From positions 1-64,000 of the IMG/VR virus record IMGVR_UViG_3300020198_000012: DNA of 64,000 nucleotides. One strand, 5' to 3'. The notes beneath the pieces were generated by a model. It was not told the origin of the DNA. It worked only from the letters and a program-made list of their open reading frames with translations, and searched no databases. This stretch comes from a virus. The number at the start of each line of letters is the position of its first letter. Position 1 is the first letter of the stretch. Positions 8,276-61,909 of this stretch are shown piece by piece. A program made the translations under genes and the position numbers.

Positions 8276-8673
8276 TGATGAAATGTCTTAACTGTGAATA
8301 TTGTAACCACTCAAAAACTACAGAGTGTCTTTTTTGTGGAGCATCACTGGTAAAAAATGTTGATGGAAAGATTATTCTTAACGGATCACCATTAGATATA
8401 TTACGTACTGTTTACACATGCTATGGATTTAATATAACTGACCTATTAGAACATGAATCAGATATTTATGTGGAAGTTGTAGAACCTATTGATTTACAAA
8501 ATAATAAATTTGTAGACATTCATTCCTTTTTACACACGAAAGGGATACATTTTTTAGGAGCTGTCAGTGATCATGGTTTATGGTATGCAACAGATAAATT
8601 ATTTAAAAATGGTTTTGACTGGAGATTAAAATCCGGTCGTTTTAGTTGTATAACTGATATGGGTGTATTATAA
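8275..8673 (+). CDS. Zinc-ribbon protein (132 aa)
   Basis: The N-terminus carries C-x2-C-x2-C and C-x2-C (residues 4-22), a zinc-ribbon head, followed by an uncharacterised alpha/beta domain of about 100 residues. The stop overlaps the start of the AAA+ ATPase gene, so it is probably co-translated with it. Confidence 0.75.
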   Translation: MMKCLNCEYCNHSKTTECLFCGASLVKNVDGKIILNGSPLDILRTVYTCYGFNITDLLEHESDIYVEVVEPIDLQNNKFVDIHSFLHTKGIHFLGAVSDHGLWYATDKLFKNGFDWRLKSGRFSCITDMGVL

Positions 8674-9623
8674 TGGAAGGAAATATAAAAGACAAACTTG
8701 CTTATTTAACTGAGCAAGGAATAAAGGGTAATTTGGTTGCTGGAAAAGTTCCAGTCATACCAATTAACTATGATATATATCTCCCAGAAAGATTTGGGAA
8801 ATATGTAGATATAGGCGGTCATCTTAAGACCATGAAGACCGTTATAGAGGAAAAAGATAACATACCATTCCTTATTGAAGGTGATAAGGGAATAGGTAAA
8901 ACTATGGTTGTGCATGAAGCATGTGCTGATTTGGATTGTCCCTTGATTACACATTCATGTTCTTCGGGAACAACAATGGGTGATATATTAGGAAGGTTGC
9001 AGTTACAAGGAGATGTATCTGTATTTCAGCTAGGTGTCCTACCTATTGCGATAGAGGTGGCAAATCATTATGGAAGAGCTGTCTTATATCTTGACGAGCT
9101 AAGCTCCCTAGAGCCAGAAATTCAAAAAATGTTGAATCCTGTACTTGATGACAGGCACAAAATAATTGTAAATGACAACCTTTACAAACTAAAAGGAGAC
9201 GCAACACTAACAGTTGTGGCGACAACAAATCCAGCAGATTATCAGGGATCAAACCCACTAAATGAAGACTTAAGAAGTAGGTTTATAGGAGAGATATGGT
9301 CTTATCCAAAATCCATAGAAGTGGCAAAGGTAATAGATTGGACAGATATACCAGTAGATGAGGTTAAGAAACCACTTCTAACATTAGCTACTGATACATT
9401 AAGTCTAAGGCAGGAAGGTGAAGTGGATTATGTATTATCTATAAGGGATATACATTTATTCACAAAAGCATATAGAATGTGGAAGAACAGTGGAATAACT
9501 GGATTAGAGAATATTTTGGAAAAGACAATACAGACAACCATATTGATAAAATATGAGGATTCAAAGCAAAGAGAGTTGATACAAAAACGTGCAATAGAAA
9601 CCTTTGGAGTTGGTAAGATATGA
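8673..9623 (+). CDS. MoxR/CobS-like AAA+ ATPase
   Basis: 316 aa AAA+ ATPase. Walker A GDKGIGKT at 70-77, Walker B VLYLDEL at 137-143, sensor-1 Asn in TTNP at 186, and arginines near 201-203. The motif spacing and GxxLQG-type insert match the MoxR/CobS branch. These ATPases remodel partner proteins through a VWA-domain adaptor, and the adjoining gene is exactly such a partner, overlapping by four bases. CobS-like genes occur in phages and in marine thaumarchaeal viruses, where their role is unsettled; true cobalt chelation is unlikely without a CobN. Cytoplasmic. Confidence 0.92.
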   Translation: MEGNIKDKLAYLTEQGIKGNLVAGKVPVIPINYDIYLPERFGKYVDIGGHLKTMKTVIEEKDNIPFLIEGDKGIGKTMVVHEACADLDCPLITHSCSSGTTMGDILGRLQLQGDVSVFQLGVLPIAIEVANHYGRAVLYLDELSSLEPEIQKMLNPVLDDRHKIIVNDNLYKLKGDATLTVVATTNPADYQGSNPLNEDLRSRFIGEIWSYPKSIEVAKVIDWTDIPVDEVKKPLLTLATDTLSLRQEGEVDYVLSIRDIHLFTKAYRMWKNSGITGLENILEKTIQTTILIKYEDSKQRELIQKRAIETFGVGKI

Positions 9624-11302
9624 AGAAAGGTCTATCTATAACAGAAAAAGAATTATTTTCCAAGACAGCATCTATTTTTGAAAATCTAAAGCACAAGAAA
9701 ATAGAGATACAATATGGACGCGGTGGGAATTATATATACCCTGAAAATGGAAAATTTGTCATTAATGTAGCCACGCCAGCAGAAAAGAATATTGAAAAAT
9801 ATACAGCGTTGAACCATGAATTGGGACATTACGTTTTTGACAGTTTTGGAAAGGATGTGAAACCCATTTTGTTTAAAGAGTGTAGAAGCTTTCCTGCAGT
9901 CTTAGAAGCGATTGCAAGAGACATGTATCTTGCCACATTTAATATTATAGAAGACCAGAGAATAGAATCTTTAATGGGACAAATATATTTGGGAACAAAT
10001 AAAAGATTCAAAAAGACCAGGGAAAAATTGGGAAAAGTTTGTACTCCAGCAAATGATCCTGTAAATGCGTTGCTATTTACTAGATTCATGAGAGATGATT
10101 TAGTTTTGCCAGATTTTGAATTGGCTAAACAGATAATAAAGGATGTAGAACTACAAAGTCCTGAAGGGGGAGTGGTTTTAACGATAGAATATATAAGAAA
10201 AGTGATCAATCCTTATCTACAAAAAAATGTAAATGATATACCAAAACTTCCTAATGGTGATCTAGTTACAGATGTTGGTGAGGTTAACGGAGATCTTAGT
10301 GAAGCAGCTCACTCATCAAAAAAGATGAATTCCAAATGTGATCATCAAGGTCTTTCAAAAGAAATGACACCAGAAGAACAACAGAATATAGAAAAAGGAA
10401 TGCCAATTCTTGAAGAATTAAAAGCTAAGGGAGAACTTTTAGTGGAAGGAGTGAAAGAGGAGTTACAGAAGAATTTACTTGGTGGAAAGAAATTATTACC
10501 TGCAAGTCAAGTTGATATTGATATAATAAACAGGACTAGGGGAAACCCCTATATTCCTGATACTATGGTTGCAAGACAACTTAATAAGATATTCCGACAG
10601 CTGCAAGAAAAATCAAAACATGGTTTTACTGATTCAGGTGACGAGATTTCAATACAACAGGTGATAAAAAGAAAAGCTACGGGACATGGAGATGCATTTA
10701 TGGATTTAAGAAGGAAATCAAAATTACATATAATGTTGGCAATAGATGGTAGCGGATCTATGCAGATGAATAGAATAGGCACCGCAAGGGATTTGGTAGC
10801 AACATTATATGATAGTCTTAAAAACATACGCCATGTCAATCTTCAGGCAGTTGTGTGGTCGTCTAATAGTAAAGGAAATCTTGGTTTAACACCGATTGAA
10901 AGTAAAAGAGATGTTGATAAAATAGATTGTTCCGATTCTTATGAATTGACACCAACTCATATAGCAGTAGATTACAGTAGAAAAGTTTTACAGAGTATGG
11001 GCGGTGGTAATAAAGTAATGATAATTTTAACAGATGGTGAGCCAAATTATTCGAAAAATCATCGTCAAATAGCCTCGGCGACAATAGCGGAGGAGACAGA
11101 ACGCAGTGTTAGAAAGGCAAGAAGTAACGGGATTAAGGTTATAGGTATATTAATTGGCCATGGGAATGTCTATGATATGGAAATCATGTTTGGTAAAAAG
11201 AATTTCATACATTGTAGATCCATGAACGATGCATCAGATAAACTGGTAAGGCAGTTTAGTAGAATTGTGGTGAAACAGATCAGGAGGAAAGGTAAGGTAT
11301 GA
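9620..11302 (+). CDS. VWA-domain protein with metallopeptidase-like N-terminus (CobT-like)
   Basis: 560 aa. A zincin-like HELGH at 66-70 is followed by a conserved-looking EDQRIE at 111-116, a possible third zinc ligand. The C-terminal von Willebrand A domain has the MIDAS motif DGSGS at 376-380, Thr near 444-446 and TDGEP at 471-475. The AAA+ gene just upstream overlaps it (ATGA), the standard MoxR-VWA or CobS-CobT pairing. The predicted job is an ATP-driven remodelling or maturation machine; whether the zinc site cleaves protein is unknown. No signal peptide, so it acts inside the cell. Confidence 0.9.
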   Translation: MKKGLSITEKELFSKTASIFENLKHKKIEIQYGRGGNYIYPENGKFVINVATPAEKNIEKYTALNHELGHYVFDSFGKDVKPILFKECRSFPAVLEAIARDMYLATFNIIEDQRIESLMGQIYLGTNKRFKKTREKLGKVCTPANDPVNALLFTRFMRDDLVLPDFELAKQIIKDVELQSPEGGVVLTIEYIRKVINPYLQKNVNDIPKLPNGDLVTDVGEVNGDLSEAAHSSKKMNSKCDHQGLSKEMTPEEQQNIEKGMPILEELKAKGELLVEGVKEELQKNLLGGKKLLPASQVDIDIINRTRGNPYIPDTMVARQLNKIFRQLQEKSKHGFTDSGDEISIQQVIKRKATGHGDAFMDLRRKSKLHIMLAIDGSGSMQMNRIGTARDLVATLYDSLKNIRHVNLQAVVWSSNSKGNLGLTPIESKRDVDKIDCSDSYELTPTHIAVDYSRKVLQSMGGGNKVMIILTDGEPNYSKNHRQIASATIAEETERSVRKARSNGIKVIGILIGHGNVYDMEIMFGKKNFIHCRSMNDASDKLVRQFSRIVVKQIRRKGKV

Positions 11303-17429: not shown

Positions 17430-17645
17430 ATGCTTAATAATGCAAATTACCAATGGATAATGATCAAGTTAGGAACAATCCATAAATCAATTATATTAAC
17501 CTGCAGAAACCCTGGAATATCACAACAAACAAAGGATAAATTAAATACAGCATTTAAAGCTTTATTAGATGATGTTATACAACTAACATCTCCTTTGACA
17601 ATCGAAAGAGAAATATATAAATTGGATCCTAAAAATGAGATATAG
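17430..17645 (+). CDS. Helical protein (71 aa)
   Basis: Not recognised. All-helical and soluble. Directly follows the membrane protein gene and overlaps the methyltransferase gene by 11 bases. Confidence 0.65.
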   Translation: MLNNANYQWIMIKLGTIHKSIILTCRNPGISQQTKDKLNTAFKALLDDVIQLTSPLTIEREIYKLDPKNEI

Positions 17646-18261
17646 AAGACAAAGTGTTACGGAAAAACCTAAAGAAACTTGTTATTTAGGTATTGCTGAT
17701 GATATTAGATCAAAAGATTCTCTTTCAAAATTTATGGCTGATGAAAATAGTTACATACATGAACACCTTGCAACCCTTTTCTTTTTAACCAGGATATCCA
17801 AACCTAATAAGATAGTTGAAATTGGAACAGGAGAAGGTCATAGCACTCTAGCCTTTGCACAAGGATGTGCTGTTAATGGAAAAGGCCATGTTATTAGCAT
17901 TGATATTGAAGAAAAAGGAAAGGCTATAGATTTACTACAAGATGAAAATCTTTATACTTACGTTACCTTTATGAAAGACCCTAACGTTTCTTTGATAGGA
18001 GGAATTGATATCCTTTTCATTGATGGTGATCATAGTTATGAATCTGTTAAGAAAGATATTGAAAAATATTATTCTGAAATAACAGAAGGAGGATTTATAG
18101 TTTTCCATGATGCGTATAACCCTGCACATCCCGGAGTAATGAAAGCCATACAAGAATCTATCAACAATGTTGATCGTGTTCTTGAATGGGATTATTATGA
18201 ATGGTTTAATTGTAATGGGTTGGTAATAATACAGAGGAAATTACAAGATTGGCCAAATTAA
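17635..18261 (+). CDS. Class I SAM-dependent methyltransferase (Methyltransf_24-like)
   Basis: 208 aa. Motif I VEIGTGEGHS at 61-70 binds SAM, an acidic SIDIEE follows at 88-93, and LFIDGDHSYE at 127-136 with VFHDA at 156-160 are typical of the methyltransferase-24/cephalosporin-hydroxylase-like group often found in surface-sugar clusters. Its neighbours are an acyltransferase, a NeuB-like synthase and a cytidylyltransferase, so O-methylation of a sugar is the likely role. Overlaps the genes on both sides. Small-molecule or lipid substrates are not excluded. Confidence 0.88.
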   Translation: MRYRRQSVTEKPKETCYLGIADDIRSKDSLSKFMADENSYIHEHLATLFFLTRISKPNKIVEIGTGEGHSTLAFAQGCAVNGKGHVISIDIEEKGKAIDLLQDENLYTYVTFMKDPNVSLIGGIDILFIDGDHSYESVKKDIEKYYSEITEGGFIVFHDAYNPAHPGVMKAIQESINNVDRVLEWDYYEWFNCNGLVIIQRKLQDWPN

Positions 18262-18410
18262 AAATAATAGAAGATAGCAATATTACCCTGTTTCAACAAC
18301 ATGTTAATAATTTTATTAAGGATATGAAAGGAGTAAATGTGCAATATGTCAGAAGTTCAACTAACTATACTGGTTCTTACCACATAGCAATTATAACCTA
18401 TGATAACTAA
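18249..18410 (+). CDS. Small Cse60-like protein (53 aa)
   Basis: TTG start with GAGGA upstream, filling the gap between methyltransferase and acyltransferase. The layout KLKIIEDS...VNNFIKD...HIAIITY resembles the small alpha/beta Cse60 family, whose role is unknown. The family match is by eye only. Confidence 0.55.
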   Translation: MAKLKIIEDSNITLFQQHVNNFIKDMKGVNVQYVRSSTNYTGSYHIAIITYDN

Positions 18411-18999
18411 AGATATTAGATTCCTTCTTCCGTCTGAAGTTGAGACATTTAATTGGAAAAGAATTGGAAAGAATGTTCAAATAGCTAGAACAGCTGTTAT
18501 AGACGATCCTTCAAAAGTGTCTATTGGTGATAATGTTATTATTAGTGATAATAGTATAATAACAGGTGAAGTTTCTATAGGAAATTATACTCATATAGCA
18601 CATTATGTCCATTTATCAGGTCAAAAAGGATTATCAATTGGAAAACACTGTGGTATAGGCTCAAGAACTACCATATATACTTCTTCAGATGATTTTAGAG
18701 GAACACATTTAATTGGACCAACTTATCCTATAGGATATAGAAAATTGTTTTCTAATCCAGTAGAAATTGGAGATTTTGTAATAATAGGAATAGGCAGTGT
18801 AGTGTTTCCACAATGGAATGGACAACCTACACACATACCAGAAGGAGCAGCTTTCTGGAGAGGAAGCCTAATAGCAGGGGATTATTCCCCTTGGACCATT
18901 AATCATAGCCTATATCCTGATAGCAAGGCTGGGTATTTGTCTAGTAGAATTAAAGATATGAAAATTTTTGCACAAAAATTAGAGGAAGATTATGTCTAA
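18400..18999 (+). CDS. Hexapeptide-repeat acyltransferase (left-handed beta-helix)
   Basis: 199 aa. Repeated I-G-x4 hexapeptides (SIGDNV, SIGNYT, SIGKHC, EIGDFV, GIGSVV) between residues 45 and 130 build a left-handed beta-helix, the fold of WbbJ/NeuD-type O- and N-acetyltransferases. An insertion with SSDDFRG and the H-rich turn is typical of those enzymes. Sits directly before the NeuB-like gene and probably acetylates the nonulosonate-like sugar or its precursor. Confidence 0.88.
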   Translation: MITKDIRFLLPSEVETFNWKRIGKNVQIARTAVIDDPSKVSIGDNVIISDNSIITGEVSIGNYTHIAHYVHLSGQKGLSIGKHCGIGSRTTIYTSSDDFRGTHLIGPTYPIGYRKLFSNPVEIGDFVIIGIGSVVFPQWNGQPTHIPEGAAFWRGSLIAGDYSPWTINHSLYPDSKAGYLSSRIKDMKIFAQKLEEDYV

Positions 19000-19645
19000 T
19001 GTTACTATAACAGCTGAACTAGGAACAGCTTGGAGAGGAGATTTTACTCTACTAAAAAAATTAATGAAGCAATGTAAAGAAGCCGATGTTAATGCTGTTA
19101 AATTACAAGCTTTTAGATCTGAACACCTATCAAAAAGATTTGATAGATTAATTTCTTCAGTCACTGAGGCTAATGTAGAAACAATTGACAGCATTGCTAA
19201 AGAAGTGAGAATTCCATGGTATTGTACACCTTGTTATCCACAAGCAGTTGAATTCCTAGATCCTTTTGTGAATTGTTATAAAATAAGGTATAAAGACAGA
19301 CATAATTTTGGTTTAATAGATAGAGTAGATGAAACCTCTAAGAAGTTTTTTATGTCCACAGATGATGAAATTTGTTGGTATGATCATGTTGTTCCATTAT
19401 ATTGTGTTTCAAAATATCCTCCTTTGCCAGAAGATGTAAACTTTAAAGAAATGGAAAAATTTAGTGGATTTAGTTGTCATCTTCCTGATAAGAATATCAT
19501 CCTGACAGCAATTAAAGTTGCTAAAATAAAATATTTAGAACTTCATGTGAAACCCCTTGGTAACACAGGAGACCTAATGGATGATCCTGTTAGTTTTGAT
19601 ACTATAGAGTTGAAATATTTAATAAAGGAGATAAGAGAACTATGA
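18992..19645 (+). CDS. NeuB-like sialic-acid/nonulosonate synthase, short form
   Basis: 217 aa. Follows the NeuB TIM barrel: AELG (8-11), VKLQA (36-40), CTPCYPQAVEFLD (78-90), YKIRYKD, then LYCVSKYPP (136-144), a G-x-S-x-H turn (GFSCHL) and LELHVKP. NeuB enzymes condense PEP with a hexosamine to make sialic, legionaminic or pseudaminic acids. Normal NeuB has about 340 residues with a C-terminal SAF domain; here the SAF part is absent, which also happens in some cluster-specific homologues. Activity is plausible but unproven. Flanked by acyl- and cytidylyltransferase genes. Confidence 0.85.
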   Translation: MSNVTITAELGTAWRGDFTLLKKLMKQCKEADVNAVKLQAFRSEHLSKRFDRLISSVTEANVETIDSIAKEVRIPWYCTPCYPQAVEFLDPFVNCYKIRYKDRHNFGLIDRVDETSKKFFMSTDDEICWYDHVVPLYCVSKYPPLPEDVNFKEMEKFSGFSCHLPDKNIILTAIKVAKIKYLELHVKPLGNTGDLMDDPVSFDTIELKYLIKEIREL

Positions 19646-20223
19646 CCACAGGAATTATTTTACAAGCAAGATTAACATCAGAAAGATTCCCAAACAAGAC
19701 AATGTGTTATCTATTAGGAAAACCTTTAATTGATCATATGTTGGAAAAGCTAATGCCTCTAGGATATCCTTTGGTAGTAGCTATTCCTGATACTAGATCT
19801 AATGAACCTTTACGAGCTTATTTGGAAGATAAATATCCTACAGTACAAGTTTATAGATCCTTTGAAGAAGACCTTGTTAGAAGGTATCGGGATGTTAATA
19901 GTTTTTGTAACTTTGATCCTATAATAAGGATATGTGCTGATAGTCCTTTCTTTGATGCTGAAGATATTAAAATTGCATTGGAAATTTATAATAAAAGACA
20001 AAGATTTACTATGTTAAATCATATACAAGTATTTGGAAAAGATGAATTAGAATATGCTTTCTTTTATGATTATCCAGCAGATTCAAGACAACACGTTGTT
20101 AGAGGAATCCTTTATACAGTTGATTATCCTCAAGATATTGAAAGGATAGAAAAAGATGTTGAGACTGGTAGGTCTCCTACATTAAACAGGATGTTAGGAA
20201 TAAATGCCAAAAAAGAAAAGTAA
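19642..20223 (+). CDS. SpsF/NeuA-like cytidylyltransferase
   Basis: 193 aa. The N-terminal signature IILQARLTSERFPNKT (residues 5-20) is that of SpsF/CMP-NeuA-type nucleotidyltransferases, and RICADSPFFD (about 93-102) carries the metal-binding Asp. Such enzymes activate 8- or 9-carbon acidic sugars as CMP-sugars. Four-base overlap with the NeuB-like gene supports a shared pathway: synthesis, then CMP activation. Slightly shorter than typical SpsF (about 240 aa). Confidence 0.87.
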   Translation: MTTGIILQARLTSERFPNKTMCYLLGKPLIDHMLEKLMPLGYPLVVAIPDTRSNEPLRAYLEDKYPTVQVYRSFEEDLVRRYRDVNSFCNFDPIIRICADSPFFDAEDIKIALEIYNKRQRFTMLNHIQVFGKDELEYAFFYDYPADSRQHVVRGILYTVDYPQDIERIEKDVETGRSPTLNRMLGINAKKEK

Positions 20224-20560
20224 AAAACAATCCAATAAACTATATGGGTGTGATGAGTGTCTTAGAGGCACTATTATGGGAATTCCTATTTGTTCTAGAT
20301 GTGATATGCAAGCGGAAGTAAAATGTGGTTGTTGTTTTGATAATTTTTGTAATGAGTGTTTTGTAGATCACTGTTGGGAAGAACAATCCAATGGAGAACC
20401 TGAAGAACAAGAAATATGTGTAGGTTGTAATAGAGAACCTTCTCGATGTGACTGTCCAATGTTGTGTTATGATTGTGGAGAAGAAGAAGGTAATTGTCTA
20501 ACAGACTGTGAATGTAGGGATTGTGTTCCTGAATGCAATGAATGTGATGGCAATTGCTAA
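20204..20560 (+). CDS. Very Cys-rich multi-zinc protein (118 aa)
   Basis: About 26 cysteines in 118 residues, mostly as C-x2-C pairs (CDEC, CSRC, CNEC, CVGC, CYDC, CRDC, CNEC), with a basic N-terminus KKKSKKQ. The first half resembles a B-box/RING-like cross-brace, binding several zincs. The same frame stays open and Cys-rich after the TAA at 20558-20560 up to 20620, suggesting readthrough or a recent nonsense change. Function unknown; overlaps the cytidylyltransferase gene by 20 bases. Confidence 0.75.
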   Translation: MPKKKSKKQSNKLYGCDECLRGTIMGIPICSRCDMQAEVKCGCCFDNFCNECFVDHCWEEQSNGEPEEQEICVGCNREPSRCDCPMLCYDCGEEEGNCLTDCECRDCVPECNECDGNC

Positions 20561-20585
20561 GATCCTTGCGAATGCGTAGATTCAG

Positions 20586-20795
20586 ATGAAGGATGTGAAC
20601 AGTGTGAGTGCTCCCACTAGCAACTATGAGGAAGTTATTCCTCCTTTAATTAGTGCTTTAGAATGTTTAGAAGCATTAGTTGTAAGAGATGATATATCTA
20701 ATACAGAAAAAATGTTATGGATTAGAAAACTTATTATTGCATTAAAACCAAGGAAACCAACTTGTCCGAAAAAGAAAACCAAATCAAAAGGTTAG
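20586..20795 (+). CDS. Helical protein (69 aa or 64 aa)
   Basis: Not recognised. Either ATG 20586 or GTG 20601 could start it; GTG has AAGGATGTG upstream. Helical centre and a Lys-rich, Cys/Pro-containing tail (PTCPKKKTKSK). Confidence 0.6.
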   Translation: MKDVNSVSAPTSNYEEVIPPLISALECLEALVVRDDISNTEKMLWIRKLIIALKPRKPTCPKKKTKSKG

Positions 20796-20932
20796 AAAGT
20801 AAAATGAAGTTTTATTTAGAAAAAGCCAAGAAACTTCAAAATAGAATTGATAGATTAACTGGGAAATTACCTATAGATGAAGATACCGGTTACCAGGGAC
20901 CAAAGGTGGCATCGCATGGGCAGGAATCGTAA
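20762..20932 (+). CDS. Small coiled-coil protein (56 aa), TTG start
   Basis: Strong heptad-like Leu/Lys/Glu pattern in residues 1-36, then a polar tail. AAGGA lies before the TTG. Overlaps both neighbours. No family recognised. Confidence 0.5.
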   Translation: MSEKENQIKRLESKMKFYLEKAKKLQNRIDRLTGKLPIDEDTGYQGPKVASHGQES

Positions 20933-21014
20933 AAGATTTAACAACTTTTTTGAAGAATTGTGTAAAGGACTAATTGAAGAAATAAAAAAGAAAGATGAAG
21001 GAGAGAGGGTTTGA
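20916..21014 (+). CDS. Small basic helical protein (32 aa)
   Basis: AAAGGTGG at 20903-20910 is a good ribosome site. Arg/Lys-rich helix. Stop overlaps the next TTG start (TTTGA). Confidence 0.48.
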   Translation: MGRNRKRFNNFFEELCKGLIEEIKKKDEGERV

Positions 21015-21190
21015 CTACATTGCTAGATTATTGTCCTTTATGTTTAGAAGCTATGGATACAACTCCTTCAGACGATCAAGCTATTAGAGCCTGGAGAATT
21101 GAACATGATATGAAAGAACATCCTGGTTATTATGCTTATCAGACAGAGATATTAAAATGGAAAGATCCTGTAGATAGGAGAAAGAACTGA
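21011..21190 (+). CDS. C2H2-like mini-protein (59 aa), TTG start
   Basis: CPLC at 8-11 and H-x4-H (HDMKEH, 32-37) give a C2H2-like zinc site with a long linker. GAGAGAGGG just upstream is the ribosome site; it ends two bases before the DUF115 gene. Confidence 0.55.
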   Translation: MTTLLDYCPLCLEAMDTTPSDDQAIRAWRIEHDMKEHPGYYAYQTEILKWKDPVDRRKN

Positions 21191-21192
21191 AT

Positions 21193-21867
21193 ATGTTTAA
21201 TAAAATATTAATCTTTGGCGCAGGACCCTCTTTAGCACAGAATATAAAGGATTATATTCGACTAGGTCCTTTCCCCGGTGTCACTATCGCCTGTGACGCA
21301 GCTGTAGAGAAGTTATTACAACATGATATTATACCTGATTATTGTACTGTCTTAGAAGATGGCAATGATCTTGATAAATATTTTAGACCTAAAATAGTCC
21401 AACAAAAAGGACATTTAATAAAAAAATGTTATGTCAGTGATAGGATATCTTTTCCAGTCAAAGAATCTCTAGGAGAAGCAAAAATCTCTTGGGAGATAGC
21501 TCCTAATTGTGGGGATTATTTTAATACTTCTAATGTAGGATTGTTCACTTGGTTTGTATCGATACATTCTTTGGATATTAAAGAAATTTATCTTCTAGGA
21601 ATGGATCATTGTTATGCAAAAGATGCACCTCCTCCAGTTGACCAAAAATCAGAACTTTTTAAATATGGTTTCTATGTTGTATGGGATCCTCATAATGATG
21701 AGAAAATGATATTAAATCCTGCTCATCAATTATGGAAAGAAGAATTTGAGTATTTTTCAAAACAATATCCCGAAGTTAAGAATATTAACCTAACCGGTAG
21801 AGGCGCTCTCTGCAAAGATAAATATTTTGAATGGAAACCAATAAGCAATCTGAACAGTTGGCAATAG
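21193..21867 (+). CDS. DUF115 (MptE/Maf-like) protein
   Basis: 224 aa. ILIFGAGPSL (5-14), ACDAAVEKLL, IPDYCTVLEDG (about 47-57) and LLGMDHCY (about 133-140) are the DUF115 hallmarks. In archaea full-length DUF115 proteins of this size include the pterin pyrophosphokinase MptE; in bacteria the same domain is the core of Maf proteins that transfer nonulosonic acids. The neighbouring NeuB-like and SpsF-like genes favour a sugar-transfer role, while the FolE gene far downstream keeps the pterin option open. Confidence 0.82.
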   Translation: MFNKILIFGAGPSLAQNIKDYIRLGPFPGVTIACDAAVEKLLQHDIIPDYCTVLEDGNDLDKYFRPKIVQQKGHLIKKCYVSDRISFPVKESLGEAKISWEIAPNCGDYFNTSNVGLFTWFVSIHSLDIKEIYLLGMDHCYAKDAPPPVDQKSELFKYGFYVVWDPHNDEKMILNPAHQLWKEEFEYFSKQYPEVKNINLTGRGALCKDKYFEWKPISNLNSWQ

Positions 21868-31337: not shown

Positions 31338-31440
31338 ACATATAAAAAAGGTAATACCTCCACCTGCAGAGTTTGAATTTTGGTTATATTGTGCTTTCAT
31401 AGATTATTGCGGATCTAAGAGGTTGTTAAGAATTGATTAA
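31327..31440 (+). CDS. Small protein (37 aa)
   Basis: AAAGGGA precedes tandem ATGs at 31327/31330. Two cysteines and aromatic centre; no motif. Overlaps both the kinase gene and the DpdA-like gene by about ten bases. Confidence 0.5.
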   Translation: MMVKHIKKVIPPPAEFEFWLYCAFIDYCGSKRLLRID

Positions 31441-32167
31441 ATTAATTTTAGACTATCCAATCTCTTATGTTTATGTTGCACAAGGAGATGCTACGTTTTG
31501 TCTTCCTCAGTATTATAAAGAAAGTGAATTTTATAGAACTACTATAAAAGAACTACAAAAAAATGGAAGAGAAATCATGCTCGATAACGGAGCTTGGGAA
31601 TTTGGTAGGTCAATGCATCCTTTAGAATTCTTAGAAGTTGTAAAGGAATTAAAACCAACTTGGGCAGTTATTCCTGATGTGATGAAAGATGCCGCAGAAA
31701 CAGAGAAATATGCTACAACTTTTCTAACAGCTTTAGCTTTAAAACCTATACCTGAAACTAAATTTATGTTTGCTCCACAAGGAAAGAACATTAAAGAACT
31801 GGTAACTTGTTATAATAATATAGTTTCAAGATTCTACACATTAATTGATATGTTAGCTATACCTAAACATGTAGGAAAGATTATTAACAGGGTCAAGTTT
31901 ACAGATCATCTTTGGGAAAAGGCTATTATTAAATTCCAAAATGTACATTTTTTAGGATTTCATTCTATGAAAGAATTGGAATTTACAGCAGAACAAAGGA
32001 ATTGGAACTTGTTTTCTATTGATACAAAATTTCCAATAAAGAAATCTTTTGGATTTGGATTTAAAAACGAGGATGATTATTATAGAACAACTAGACCTCT
32101 AGGGGTGATGCAACTAGAACAATCAGTGGCAATTTTCCAACGAAGTTTAGGAGATACAGGATGGTAA
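31433..32167 (+). CDS. DpdA-like 7-deazaguanine DNA transglycosylase
   Basis: 244 aa. MLDNGAWEFG at 49-58 and WAVIPDVMKD at 77-86 match the two Asp-bearing strands of the tRNA-guanine transglycosylase fold as seen in phage DpdA proteins; F-GFHSMKEL and the late SIDTKFP fit the same barrel. DpdA swaps guanine in DNA for preQ0 or a derivative. The same transcription unit encodes FolE, QueD, QueE and QueC, the preQ0 makers, which strongly supports this assignment. The tRNA zinc-binding C-terminus is missing, as expected for a DNA-acting form. TTG start with AGAGG upstream. Confidence 0.8.
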   Translation: MIKLILDYPISYVYVAQGDATFCLPQYYKESEFYRTTIKELQKNGREIMLDNGAWEFGRSMHPLEFLEVVKELKPTWAVIPDVMKDAAETEKYATTFLTALALKPIPETKFMFAPQGKNIKELVTCYNNIVSRFYTLIDMLAIPKHVGKIINRVKFTDHLWEKAIIKFQNVHFLGFHSMKELEFTAEQRNWNLFSIDTKFPIKKSFGFGFKNEDDYYRTTRPLGVMQLEQSVAIFQRSLGDTGW

Positions 32168-39280: not shown

Positions 39281-39360
39281 CAACAGGAAGTTGTAGAGGA
39301 TGTGGATTATGGAAAACTACTATCAATCCAGACGATGGATATTGTGGAGATTGTAATTAA
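39271..39360 (+). CDS. Zinc-ribbon mini-protein (29 aa), TTG start
   Basis: C-x2-C at 8-11 and C-x2-C at 25-28 in a minimal ribbon. Overlaps the phosphatase by ten bases and the queE start by one (TAATG). Confidence 0.5.
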   Translation: MVITTGSCRGCGLWKTTINPDDGYCGDCN

Positions 39361-40178
39361 TGACTAGAAAAACCTATGAAGATAATATAGTTTATCTATT
39401 TGAAGTTCCTTATCAAACTATTAATGGAGAAGGAGAACATATAGGAAAACCTTGTATTTTCATTCGATTCCAAGGATGCACCGTTGGTTGTAAATGGTGT
39501 GATGCTATGGGAACATGGCCTGAGAAAAGAGGAGATTTAAAACTTGGCATTGCAATGACTAATAAAGAAGTTTGTGATTACATAGACCAACATTTTCCTG
39601 CAACTGTTAGGGTATGGATTACTGGAGGAGAACCAACAGAACACGGTTATGAAGCTTATTCTTTGGTAAAATATATAAAGAAAAATTCAATTACTAGGAG
39701 AATATTTCACTTGATTACTGCAGGAAAGAAATATGATGAAAAAATGCTTTATGAGTTTGATAAGATTACTATTGATATTAAACCTCCAAGCAGTGGAGCC
39801 ACTACACCAGAGGAATTCATTTCTTGGAGTATGGAAAATCCTGTTTTAAAAGGAAAAGTTGATTTTAAAATGGTAGTAGCCCCAACAGCTGAGGATATTA
39901 CTTTTGCTAGGAATAATATACATAGGTTACAACAATTTGGACGAGATATTACTGTGCAACCCTTGTATTGGTCGGAAGCAGAGGCCAGAACAAATAAAGA
40001 TTTATATAGTAAGGAAAATAAATTAAAGATGTTTGAAGAAAGATTTGCTACACCTAAAGGATGGGATTCTTATGCACAATTTGCTGAAGAGTTCTTAGGA
40101 ACTGTTAAATATCCTAATGTTAGAGTTCTTCCACAATTACATAAGATTTATTGGCCAGGAAAGTTGAGTGGAATTTGA
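39360..40178 (+). CDS. queE: 7-carboxy-7-deazaguanine synthase (QueE)
   Basis: 272 aa radical-SAM enzyme. QTINGEGEHIG (19-29) and C40-x3-C44-x2-C47 (CTVGCKWC) bind the 4Fe-4S cluster and SAM; WITGGEP holds the GGE motif; the ending VQPLYW...VLPQLHK is typical of QueE. It converts 6-carboxy-tetrahydropterin to 7-carboxy-7-deazaguanine, step three of preQ0 synthesis. Overlaps folE. Confidence 0.95.
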   Translation: MTRKTYEDNIVYLFEVPYQTINGEGEHIGKPCIFIRFQGCTVGCKWCDAMGTWPEKRGDLKLGIAMTNKEVCDYIDQHFPATVRVWITGGEPTEHGYEAYSLVKYIKKNSITRRIFHLITAGKKYDEKMLYEFDKITIDIKPPSSGATTPEEFISWSMENPVLKGKVDFKMVVAPTAEDITFARNNIHRLQQFGRDITVQPLYWSEAEARTNKDLYSKENKLKMFEERFATPKGWDSYAQFAEEFLGTVKYPNVRVLPQLHKIYWPGKLSGI

Positions 40179-40825
40179 AGAAAATATCTTCAAGTACTTA
40201 TAATTCATCAACTAGTGGATCATTTCCATTAACCCTTACATTTAGTGATAGTAATTCTGATTCTTTAACTTCTATTATTGAAAAATTAATAGAAAAAATG
40301 CATTGGCAAGATGATGATAATTTTGATGATACTCCTCAAAGGTTTACAACTTGGTTGAAAGAAAACCAAGGACTTTCTAAAGCGGATTGTAAAAGGAAAT
40401 CTATTGAAGATTTAAAGAAAAGGTTTGCTACAAAGAACCAACAGATGGTAGTTGTTGGACCTACAAAGACATTTTCATTATGTCCTCATCATCTTTTACC
40501 TATAGAATATGATTCTTGGGTAGGATATATTCCTAATAAATGGGCTGTAGGAATATCAAAGTTATCTAGAGTTCCTTTAAACTTTTCTCGATATCCCTTC
40601 ATTCAAGAAGATTATACAGAAGAAATAGCTGATGCTATTATGGAAAATCTACAACCAAAAGGTGTTATGGTGGTTGTTAAAGGAACACATAATTGTATGA
40701 GGATTAGAGGAGTAAAACAACCAGATGCAGTTACTATGTCTAGTGCTTTAAAAGGAGTATTCTTGAAACCTCCTAAAGGAAAAGATCCTAGATCAGAATT
40801 GTTAAAACTAATAGAGATTCAATAA
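40175..40825 (+). CDS. folE: GTP cyclohydrolase I (FolE)
   Basis: About 216 aa. Zinc site in SLCPHHLLP (C and two His) and HNCMRIRG (His, Cys), plus GISKLSR and the QE(D)YTEEIA segment, all standard for FolE type I. It opens GTP to dihydroneopterin triphosphate, the first step of preQ0 synthesis. TTG 40175 with GAGTGG upstream is preferred; TTG 40151 is also open. The N-terminal 35 residues are Ser/Thr-rich and unlike bacterial FolE. Confidence 0.93.
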   Translation: MKKISSSTYNSSTSGSFPLTLTFSDSNSDSLTSIIEKLIEKMHWQDDDNFDDTPQRFTTWLKENQGLSKADCKRKSIEDLKKRFATKNQQMVVVGPTKTFSLCPHHLLPIEYDSWVGYIPNKWAVGISKLSRVPLNFSRYPFIQEDYTEEIADAIMENLQPKGVMVVVKGTHNCMRIRGVKQPDAVTMSSALKGVFLKPPKGKDPRSELLKLIEIQ

Positions 40826-41191: not shown

Positions 41192-41923
41192 ATGACAGAT
41201 TGGGGAAGAGATTCTTATGAAGTTTTAAACACTATAGAAGTTTTAAAGGCTAATGAACTTAATAAAAAAACCCTAGTAATACTATCAGGAGGAATGGATA
41301 GTGCTACTTGTCTCTACATTGCCAAAGTACTAGGAAGTGATGTATCAGCTATTAGTTTTAGTTATGGACAAAAACATTACATTGAAGTAAATTTTGCTAA
41401 AATATTAACAAGTAATCTTCGTATTAATCATGAAGTTGTTAAGATAGATATAGCTTCACATTTTAAAACAGCTTTAGGAAAAGACTCTCATGAAATAATT
41501 CCTTCAACCCCAACAGAAGGACAAGTTCCTGCAACTTATGTTCCATTTAGGAACACTATAATGCTATCTATAGCAGCAGGATATGCTGAATCTTGGGGAT
41601 TTGATAGAATTTTTTATGGAGCGAATATTATTGATTATAGTGGTTATCCTGATTGCAGACCAGAGTATATTAAAGATTTAAATACACTGATTAAGACTGC
41701 TTCTCCTAATAAGACTATTACTATAGAAGCACCAATCCTTTATTTAACAAAAGCTGATGTAGTCAAGCTAGGATCTGTTTTAGGTGTTCCTTGGGAATAT
41801 ACTTGGTCTTGTTATAGAGGAAGTACTACAGGAGTTCCTTGCAAAGCTTGTCCTTCTTGCTTTTATAGAGCAAAAGGATTTGAAGAAGCACAAATAAAGG
41901 ATCCACTATTGAAATATGAATAA
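41192..41923 (+). CDS. queC: 7-cyano-7-deazaguanine (preQ0) synthase QueC
   Basis: 243 aa. PP-loop ATPase motif SGGMDSAT at 32-39, the FSYGQKHYIEV substrate strand, VPFRNTIML and a C-terminal zinc cluster (WSCYRG, then PCKACPSC) are complete. It turns 7-carboxy-7-deazaguanine into preQ0 using ATP and ammonia, the final step before DNA insertion by the DpdA-like enzyme. Overlaps the nuclease gene downstream by eight bases. Confidence 0.96.
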   Translation: MTDWGRDSYEVLNTIEVLKANELNKKTLVILSGGMDSATCLYIAKVLGSDVSAISFSYGQKHYIEVNFAKILTSNLRINHEVVKIDIASHFKTALGKDSHEIIPSTPTEGQVPATYVPFRNTIMLSIAAGYAESWGFDRIFYGANIIDYSGYPDCRPEYIKDLNTLIKTASPNKTITIEAPILYLTKADVVKLGSVLGVPWEYTWSCYRGSTTGVPCKACPSCFYRAKGFEEAQIKDPLLKYE

Positions 41924-42605
41924 TTATGATTTAATTGTAGATTCTAGGGAAAAAATAAACACTTTTGAAGCTTTAAAAGCATATAATATACAATACACTA
42001 TAGAAGCCTTACCTGTGGGAGATCTTAAAGTTACTACTCCTGATGGTAGTGTTGTAATTGAAAGAAAACAAATGACCGATTTTATTGGATCATTGTTATC
42101 TGGAAGATTAGAAGAGCAAGCTAGAAAACTAGCTAATGAAAAATGTCCTGGGTTGATATTAACAGGATCTTTTCAAGAGTATAGACAACATGCAAAAACC
42201 ACTAAATTAACAACTGACCATGTAATAGGGGCAATAGCTTCTTTGGTAGTTAAATATGGGTTAAGGTTTGTTATTTGGATACAAAGTGCTGAAAATAAAC
42301 CTCATGCTACTGGAATAGCTGTAGCTGCAAAGATTGCTAAAAAGATAGCTGAAGGAAAGCTAGATCAAATACCTGATAGAAGATTAAAGAAGAAAACAGA
42401 TAATCCGCAAAGAGAGATTGTTTCTCTTATTTGTGGAGTTCCTTGTGTAGTAGCTGAGAATCTTTTAAAGAAATTTGGATGTATTAGGGCTATTATGGAT
42501 GCAAAGGACGAAGAATTGTTAGAAGTAGATGGAATGGGAAAGATAAGGATTGCTAAGATGAGAAGATTGTTAGGAGATGACAAAAATGACAAAAACATTG
42601 AATGA
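41916..42605 (+). CDS. XPF/ERCC4-family structure-specific nuclease
   Basis: 229 aa. D9-SRE at the N-terminus, GDL at 35-37 and VIERKQMTDF at 47-56 give the GDx(n)ERKxxxD nuclease signature; residues 170-220 are a helix-hairpin-helix pair (VPCVVAENLLKKFGC and LEVDGMGKIRIAK). Such enzymes cut branched DNA in archaeal repair and replication-fork processing. Likely resolves viral recombination or replication intermediates with PolB and Sak4. Confidence 0.93.
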   Translation: MNNYDLIVDSREKINTFEALKAYNIQYTIEALPVGDLKVTTPDGSVVIERKQMTDFIGSLLSGRLEEQARKLANEKCPGLILTGSFQEYRQHAKTTKLTTDHVIGAIASLVVKYGLRFVIWIQSAENKPHATGIAVAAKIAKKIAEGKLDQIPDRRLKKKTDNPQREIVSLICGVPCVVAENLLKKFGCIRAIMDAKDEELLEVDGMGKIRIAKMRRLLGDDKNDKNIE

Positions 42606-60701: not shown

Positions 60702-61247
60702 CTAAAGGTATTGTACTCTTCCTATCGTCAATCTGGTGAGCACTTTTGTCGCACCAGCGGCGGAAGTTGTACCTACAGCCACGTCTTCCTCTGCAATTCC
60801 TACTATTCTTGCCAGTTCTTTAAATCTAGCTTCTAGTTCGTTACTAGCATCTGTAACTGTAGTGTTTGGAATTGTAGTTTTAGAGTATTTGTTAACTTTA
60901 CCACCCGCGGCATCTACATAGAGAGGATCTCCTCTAGTAATTGCACTGTTGTTGACCTTGACTAATAGTCTAGCCCAACCATCTGCAAACACAGGGATTC
61001 CTTTAGTACCTATTTGGGTACCTGTAAGATCCGTAGTTGATGGGAAATTCAAATCGTGAGGATCACGAGTTGATCTATAGTTAACACACTTTGGTAGATC
61101 GGTTGATCCGCATTTATCAACTTTGACAACTGAAGATTCTGATACGTAAGTTAGCACATAACCACCATCGTCAAGGGAAGTTGCATTTTTAAGTCGCATA
61201 TTCCACATTTCGCCTGGTTCACGTGCTCTACCTCCGCCGTCAGTCAT
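60702..61247 (-). CDS. Capsid decoration/DUF2190-like protein (181 aa)
   Basis: Gly/Thr/Val-rich beta protein: LLVKVNNSAITRGDPLYVD and GIAEEDVAVGTTSAAGATKVLTRLTIGRVQYL-type ending match the small decoration proteins found upstream of capsid genes. Likely covers the capsid surface. Assignment is from order and composition. Confidence 0.8.
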   Translation of the reverse strand: MTDGGGRAREPGEMWNMRLKNATSLDDGGYVLTYVSESSVVKVDKCGSTDLPKCVNYRSTRDPHDLNFPSTTDLTGTQIGTKGIPVFADGWARLLVKVNNSAITRGDPLYVDAAGGKVNKYSKTTIPNTTVTDASNELEARFKELARIVGIAEEDVAVGTTSAAGATKVLTRLTIGRVQYL

Positions 61248-61249
61248 AT

Positions 61250-61909
61250 TTAGTTACCACTTGTTATAGTTGCAGGAAGTTTTAAATCTGATAACTCACT
61301 GTGTTTTGAAATAGCGTCAAGGATTTTATCCTTTCCAGTCTTACCAGTCTCTTTAGGAGCTGGAGCATATTTCTTTGCGTCTTCAAGACCTTTTGTTGCA
61401 TTATCAAGTTCTTCTCTAAGTTTAGAGATAGATTTTTGAGTTTTAGTAGCAACATCTACCATTGCATTCATTACTTGAACCTTTTTATCCCAAGGGATAT
61501 CTAGGGTCTTTATTGAGTCAATTGGAAAGTCTTTGTCGATGCTTGTAACGTTTTTCACTTGATCACCAAATTTGGCTTCTGCTTGTCTTTCAAGCTTTTC
61601 ATCAATTGTTTTAGTATATTCAGCGAATTTAGCATCTACAGGATCGATTTTAGTCTCATCTGTTTTGATACCATTTTCCTCTAATACTTTTCTGGAAAAA
61701 GCATACATGTCTTTGAATTTACTAATAGATGATTCATCCAATTTTTTTGATGTTTCAGTTGTAGTTTCAGTCTTTACGCCTAGTTCTTTTGCTAGGTCTA
61801 TTCCTGATTTTTCTGCGGCTTCACGAAACAAAGTAAACTTCTCTTTTAATTCGTCAGGTTTGAGACCATCAAAGTTCTCTTTCTGATCGGGAGTTGTTTG
61901 TTTTGTCAT
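61250..61909 (-). CDS. Scaffold-type protein (219 aa)
   Basis: Lys/Glu-rich, helical, with long coiled-coil spans (about 95-125 and 155-200), lying between the protease and the capsid genes. It would guide capsid assembly and be removed by the protease. ATG 61909 in an ATGA overlap is preferred to TTG 61933. Confidence 0.83.
   Translation of the reverse strand: MTKQTTPDQKENFDGLKPDELKEKFTLFREAAEKSGIDLAKELGVKTETTTETSKKLDESSISKFKDMYAFSRKVLEENGIKTDETKIDPVDAKFAEYTKTIDEKLERQAEAKFGDQVKNVTSIDKDFPIDSIKTLDIPWDKKVQVMNAMVDVATKTQKSISKLREELDNATKGLEDAKKYAPAPKETGKTGKDKILDAISKHSELSDLKLPATITSGN

Follow-up and report, generated by a model that had tools for sequence, protein, structure and literature searches.

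A cassette of sugar-modification genes was identified at positions 17635–21867 of an IMG/VR virus record (IMGVR_UViG_3300020198_000012). The window that was analysed comprises bases 1–64000 of this 70,958-base record. The cassette is probably an accessory glycan-modification module of an archaeal tailed double-stranded DNA virus, which would make, activate and transfer a nonulosonate, mainly for the host surface. All five genes of the original prediction, a methyltransferase, a hexapeptide acyltransferase, a NeuB-like synthase, a cytidylyltransferase and a DUF115 protein, were found where it had placed them on the plus strand, and each gave a significant family match (Table 1).

NeuB-bearing viruses were found by an alignment-based NeuB scan of IMG/VR. 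Scans of IMG/VR using NeuB, the cytidylyltransferase, the acyltransferase and the DUF115 protein as single sequences returned zero matches, and tblastn of NeuB and the DUF115 protein against named phages gave no match. One of the viruses found, G009 (3300009149_000001, 74,198 bases), is collinear with the window virus over most genes, with proteins that are 30–68% identical. It carries orthologues, in the same order, of the methyltransferase (41% identity; G009 positions 60734–61315), NeuB (35%), the cytidylyltransferase (42%) and the DUF115 protein (45%). In both viruses the locus is flanked by a HerA-like gene on one side and by winged-helix genes on the other. Judged from the sequences, chance linkage of the genes is excluded because a relative with such divergent proteins has the four genes in the same order and place. 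The original prediction had named genes occurring unlinked in relatives as a refuting result; in G009 the four-gene linkage holds. The hexapeptide acyltransferase gene is absent from G009 and does not belong to the conserved core. Of the predicted functions, a nonulosonate-type cassette for synthesis, CMP (cytidine 5'-monophosphate) activation, methylation and transfer is supported.

Table 1. Genes and open reading frames (ORFs) of the cassette in window coordinates
Feature	Position	Strand	Evidence
S-adenosylmethionine (SAM)-dependent O-methyltransferase, 208 residues, near CmcI/TylF sugar O-methyltransferases	17635..18261	+	Methyltransf_24 PF13578 1.9e-19; PF04989 4.8e-9
53-residue ORF between methyltransferase and acyltransferase	18249..18410	+	ORF overlap
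Hexapeptide (left-handed beta helix) sugar acyltransferase, 199 residues	18400..18999	+	Hexapep 3.5e-11; NeuD/PglB/VioB family 6e-14; 3vbk 1.1e-25
Compact NeuB-family nonulosonate synthase (putative), 217 residues, TIM barrel only	18992..19645	+	NeuB PF03102 1.1e-15
Compact KdsB/SpsF-like cytidylyltransferase (putative CMP-sugar synthetase), 193 residues	19642..20223	+	CTP_transf_3 PF02348 4e-13; 6oew 2.6e-10
118-residue Cys-rich (CxxC) protein, overlaps cytidylyltransferase	20204..20560	+	No family match in family searches
69-residue small ORF	20586..20795	+	No reliable match
DUF115/MptE-like protein, 224 residues, read as Maf/sialyltransferase-like	21193..21867	+	MptE-like/DUF115 PF01973 3.3e-13

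A third relative, G022 (54,982 bases), was found via its capsid protein. It has small ORFs alone at the cassette locus, and NeuB, the DUF115 protein and the cytidylyltransferase were not found anywhere in its record. For this reason the core cassette, present in two of the three comparable relatives, is read as accessory cargo. Since the G009 orthologues are 35–45% identical in the same order and locus, the reading frames have stayed intact over large divergence, and the cargo appears to be retained by selection. If the genes had been captured from a host only recently, or were passengers in decay, and had no function for the virus, this would account for the absence from G022 and for the shortened NeuB and cytidylyltransferase. 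This very improbable reading was rejected on the basis of the intact frames, the catalytic residues and the gene order kept in two viruses at that identity; moreover, the shortening is common to a supported clade.

The AlphaFold model of NeuB (pLDDT 93.5) gave its best matches with PseI (E 6.5e-14) and sialic acid synthases (TMq 0.81–0.86), and a fold of the NeuB/PseI triosephosphate isomerase (TIM) barrel type is predicted with confidence. 3-Deoxy-D-manno-octulosonate 8-phosphate (KDO8P) synthase was a weaker fold match. All 17 of the 17 positions invariant in a comparison with seven plasmid-borne NeuBs are kept; the residues retained include E9, K37, Q39, K97, S122, Y142, S161, H163, E183, H185 and D197. 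We take E9, K37, Q39, K97, H163, H185 and D197 to be equivalent to Glu25, Lys53, Gln55, Lys129, His215, His236 and Asp247 of Neisseria NeuB, in which the lysines presumably contact phosphoenolpyruvate (PEP), the histidines manganese, and the Glu and Asp the sugar. In an alignment of 103 NeuBs, these seven residues are conserved in almost every sequence. With respect to the loss of key residues, which the original prediction had named as a refuting result, all catalytic residues are kept, though the SAF (antifreeze-like) domain is absent. The enzyme activity and the reactions that we infer for the cassette (see below) are putative.

Several features weigh against a nonulosonate module. NeuB stops after the barrel, without the SAF domain, from which an Arg (R314 in Neisseria; 4ipi/4ipj) presumably reaches the active site, and it is short by about one barrel helix. 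The usual KIxS motif is replaced by K[IV]R[YF]xD[RH]xN, shared among the aligned sequences only with G009 and the phage G010 (see below), so that the PEP-contacting Ser becomes Tyr or Phe; the window NeuB has Tyr at the position of Neisseria Ser132, which we take to be PEP-binding. The cytidylyltransferase is about 50 residues short and scores best with KdsB models. Between the cytidylyltransferase gene and the DUF115 gene there is about 1 kb of sequence with small ORFs, including a Cys-rich one. For the DUF115 protein, MptE is both the Pfam family and the closest sequence match, and the structure model of the protein has intermediate confidence (pLDDT 75).

The SAF-less state is common to many viral and some bacterial NeuBs in the alignment. 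In a maximum-likelihood tree the NeuBs of the window virus, G009, G010 and G011 form one clade with 99–100% ultrafast bootstrap, the long branches being a caveat. The cytidylyltransferase motifs ARLTSxRFPNK, CxDSP and TVDYPxD are kept in G009, and it is the C-terminal half that is shortened. As for the genes having been called mostly overlapping, this holds for the acyltransferase, NeuB and the cytidylyltransferase, which are linked by overlaps of 4–8 bases (ATGA between NeuB and the cytidylyltransferase), but not for the DUF115 gene. The equivalent of 20204–20560 in the G009 gap is a Cys-containing ORF that is unrelated to the window CxxC protein.

Given the KdsB-like score and the shortening of the cytidylyltransferase, the product could have eight carbons or be some other ulosonate. 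A product of this kind (KDO-like or an atypical ulosonate, not a nine-carbon nonulosonate) is unlikely. It would fit the replacement of the active-site Ser by Tyr in the NeuB KIRYxDRxN motif, the presence of KDO8P synthase among the weaker fold matches and the KDO8P synthases carried by giant viruses, whereas the top fold matches are NeuB/PseI and Pfam NeuB is the sole strong family. The genomic context of another member of this compact NeuB clade also argues for a nonulosonate. An unrelated phage, G010 (IMGVR 3300027887_000012, L110:12496 to L111:8997), carries this NeuB in an almost full legionaminate-type pathway with a DegT aminotransferase, a Polysacc_synt_2 dehydratase-type (4,6-dehydratase-type) enzyme, an Epimerase_2 protein, a NeuD-like acyltransferase and a NeuA-type cytidylyltransferase. 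The compact NeuB subclass is thereby tied to nonulosonate synthesis, and a fuller pathway exists in another virus.

The cassette of the window virus had been regarded as a complete set, which it is not. The DegT aminotransferase (PF01041) and the Epimerase_2 2-epimerase (PF02350) were found neither in the window virus nor in G009. As judged from these missing genes, the cassette begins at the condensation step and the six-carbon precursor must be made by the host.

The closest fold to the DUF115 model was the Maf glycosyltransferase of Magnetospirillum (5mu5; E 6.5e-7, TMq 0.68), followed by Methanocaldococcus MptE (8sd5; 5e-5, 0.51) and the human sialyltransferase ST8SiaIII (1.6e-3, 0.44), which uses CMP-sialic acid. 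The preferred assignment of the protein is a CMP-nonulosonate transferase resembling Maf and sialyltransferases. An alternative in which it is a pterin diphosphokinase of the MptE type with no connection to the sugar genes, leaving a module of NeuB and the cytidylyltransferase only, is quite unlikely. Besides the family and sequence matches noted above, the virus also encodes GTP cyclohydrolase I, but this enzyme is accounted for by the preQ0 genes (see below). The DUF115 fold is nearer to Maf than to MptE, its position beside NeuB is kept in G009, and DUF115 occurs in 6 of 13 NeuB-bearing viral records against none of nine NeuB-less ones. On the virus contig G011 (L027, IMGVR 3300026543_000029) there are three genes for DUF115 proteins, along with one for a compact NeuB and one for a DegT aminotransferase.

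For the acyltransferase, the nearest solved relative is 3vbk/3vbi, deposited as a galactoside O-acetyltransferase, which we take to be AntD. PADLOC matched the methyltransferase to mad2 (2e-7); this was attributed to general methyltransferase similarity and rejected as an assignment.

The reactions, their order, the target and the benefit are what we infer from the genes. NeuB would condense PEP with a host-made N-acetylmannosamine (ManNAc)-type hexosamine, giving a nonulosonic acid, which the KdsB/SpsF-like enzyme would convert to the CMP-sugar and the Maf-like DUF115 protein would attach either to a protein or to a glycan. The methyltransferase would O-methylate the product and, in the window virus only and not in G009, the hexapeptide enzyme would acylate it. 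That a distant relative keeps the cassette in the same place suggests that the virus remodels the host surface or its own particle. The first target would be the host S-layer, archaellum or a surface glycan, and the effect blocked re-adsorption or sensing. A host-surface target is weakly favoured over the virion because the cassette lies in the plus-strand block of replication and small genes, away from the minus-strand structural genes. Decoration of the virion, with the sugar on a capsid, tail or fibre protein aiding adsorption or shielding the particle, is possible, if clearly less probable. It finds a precedent in Halorubrum pleomorphic virus 1 (HRPV-1), the spike of which bears 5-N-formyl-legionaminate and the adsorption of which is lowered by free sialic acid (PMC6137143). 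The G010 pathway also sits between the terminase and portal genes, a late-gene position. The location of the window cassette in a non-structural block far from the structural genes speaks against it. For the host-surface function, a more specific version is proposed only tentatively: a compact transplantable cassette (SAF-less NeuB, single-domain Maf) may relabel the S-layer or archaellum with a methylated sugar new to the host, blocking competing viruses.

Archaeal surface proteins are known to carry nonulosonates, as is the spike of one archaeal virus, and in both cases the host makes them. The cassette resembles CMP-nonulosonate biosynthesis (NeuB/PseI/LegI with NeuA/PseF/LegF) in the tandem arrangement of synthase and CMP-sugar synthetase and in the synthase catalytic residues; it differs in that the aminotransferase and 2-epimerase were not found, the synthase is SAF-less and the KdsB/SpsF-like synthetase is shortened. 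G010 shares the compact NeuB clade and the NeuA-type and NeuD-type genes, but also carries the upstream enzymes and is not a relative of the window virus. With the Maf flagellin nonulosonate transferases (5mu5) the DUF115 protein shares its best fold match, although it is a single domain where those proteins have about 600 residues, and it resembles MptE at the Pfam level. As in bacterial flagellar glycosylation islands, a Maf-like gene lies near NeuB, cytidylyltransferase and methyltransferase genes, but a flagellin gene was not recognized nearby. In Clostridium, Mafs are glycosyltransferases that place nonulosonates on flagellin, and islands with PseI/PseF, Mafs and methyltransferases are clustered, for which methylated pseudaminate is predicted (PMC13317340). 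In function, these islands are the nearest counterpart of the four-gene core.

Acinetobacter prophages alter host nonulosonates by means of epaA/epaB and atr29/atr30 (PMC12053666, PMC6586298). These phage genes likewise modify a surface nonulosonate, but act on a host-made sugar, whereas the window virus carries putative synthesis, activation and probably transfer functions. HRPV-1, an archaeal virus with a nonulosonate surface (the VP4 glycan), displays host-made legionaminate and has no gene of the pathway itself; the spike nonulosonate matters for adsorption (PMC6137143). It is pleomorphic and uses the host pathway, whereas in the window virus, a tailed virus, the steps would be virus-encoded.

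Virus-borne neuB itself is not new: it has been counted in viromes (PMC3877843), BFVD lists a phage NeuB, and at least 80 IMG/VR loci were found here; of 80 such viral loci, 57 have a cytidylyltransferase as well as NeuB, some of them being near-duplicates. In a survey of archaeal tailed viruses the terms glycosyl and sialic are not in the main text (PMC8651126), and no description of an archaeal virus with a cassette of this sort was found in the open-access literature. What appears to be new is that a tailed virus, probably an archaeal one, has a putative cassette for nonulosonate synthesis, activation and transfer, and that its NeuB belongs to a clade of compact viral NeuBs without the SAF domain. 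If the assignment is correct, a virus with its own synthase, CMP activation and probable transferase would allow a direct test of viral remodelling of archaeal surface glycans, the compact NeuB would be a minimal catalytic unit of its family and the single-domain Maf a minimal nonulosonate transferase.

The host is likely to be an archaeon. DNA polymerase B is closest, among named phages, to those of haloarchaeal tailed viruses (24%) and, in the PDB, to archaeal polymerases, and the window virus has genes for a HerA-like ATPase and an XPF-type ERCC4-HHH nuclease as well as preQ0 genes (see below). TATA-type TTTAAATA boxes lie 30–36 nucleotides upstream of 2 of 37 starts (p about 0.005 versus random sites), which is weak evidence, and the TTTAAATA pattern showed no enrichment over the whole window. 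No direct host link by sequence was found. A QueC search of genome contigs gave a single match, to a spirochaete metagenome-assembled genome (38%), which was rejected as host evidence. An XPF-like ERCC4 nuclease domain with a helix-hairpin-helix is encoded at 41916–42605 and is kept in G009, G022 and G024.

By its tape measure, tail proteins and terminase the record is identified as a tailed virus, the portal match being weak (2.8e-5). Pieces of the same virus occur in four near-identical records from other samples. In one of these, 3300020221_000204 (L016), window base 1 is connected with base 70,958 via about 200 extra bases; because this record bridges the ends, the genome is closed at about 71.2 kb and is circular or circularly permuted. 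Replication, nucleotide, preQ0 and small-regulator genes form the plus-strand block 2221–44577, and the structural genes are on the minus strand.

Genes of the preQ0 type are located at 39360–40178, 40151–40825 and 41192–41923 (radical SAM QueE-like, GTP cyclohydrolase I and QueC, 2.4e-70) and are also kept in G009 and G022. Their presence suggests 7-deazaguanine-modified viral DNA, for which a DUF6610 protein (31433–32167) could be the missing base-exchange enzyme. Such genes have been reported for archaeal tailed viruses (PMC8651126). At 8673–11302 the gene for an AAA_5 (MoxR/CobS-like) ATPase and, immediately after it, that for a VWA-domain protein form a MoxR–VWA chaperone-like pair. Imperfect tandem units of 20–21 bases (GTAGAAATATGnnn-like) extend over about 1.4 kb (201–1652), adjoining the record end and the L016 closure point, and are a possible origin, packaging or repeat-binding region.

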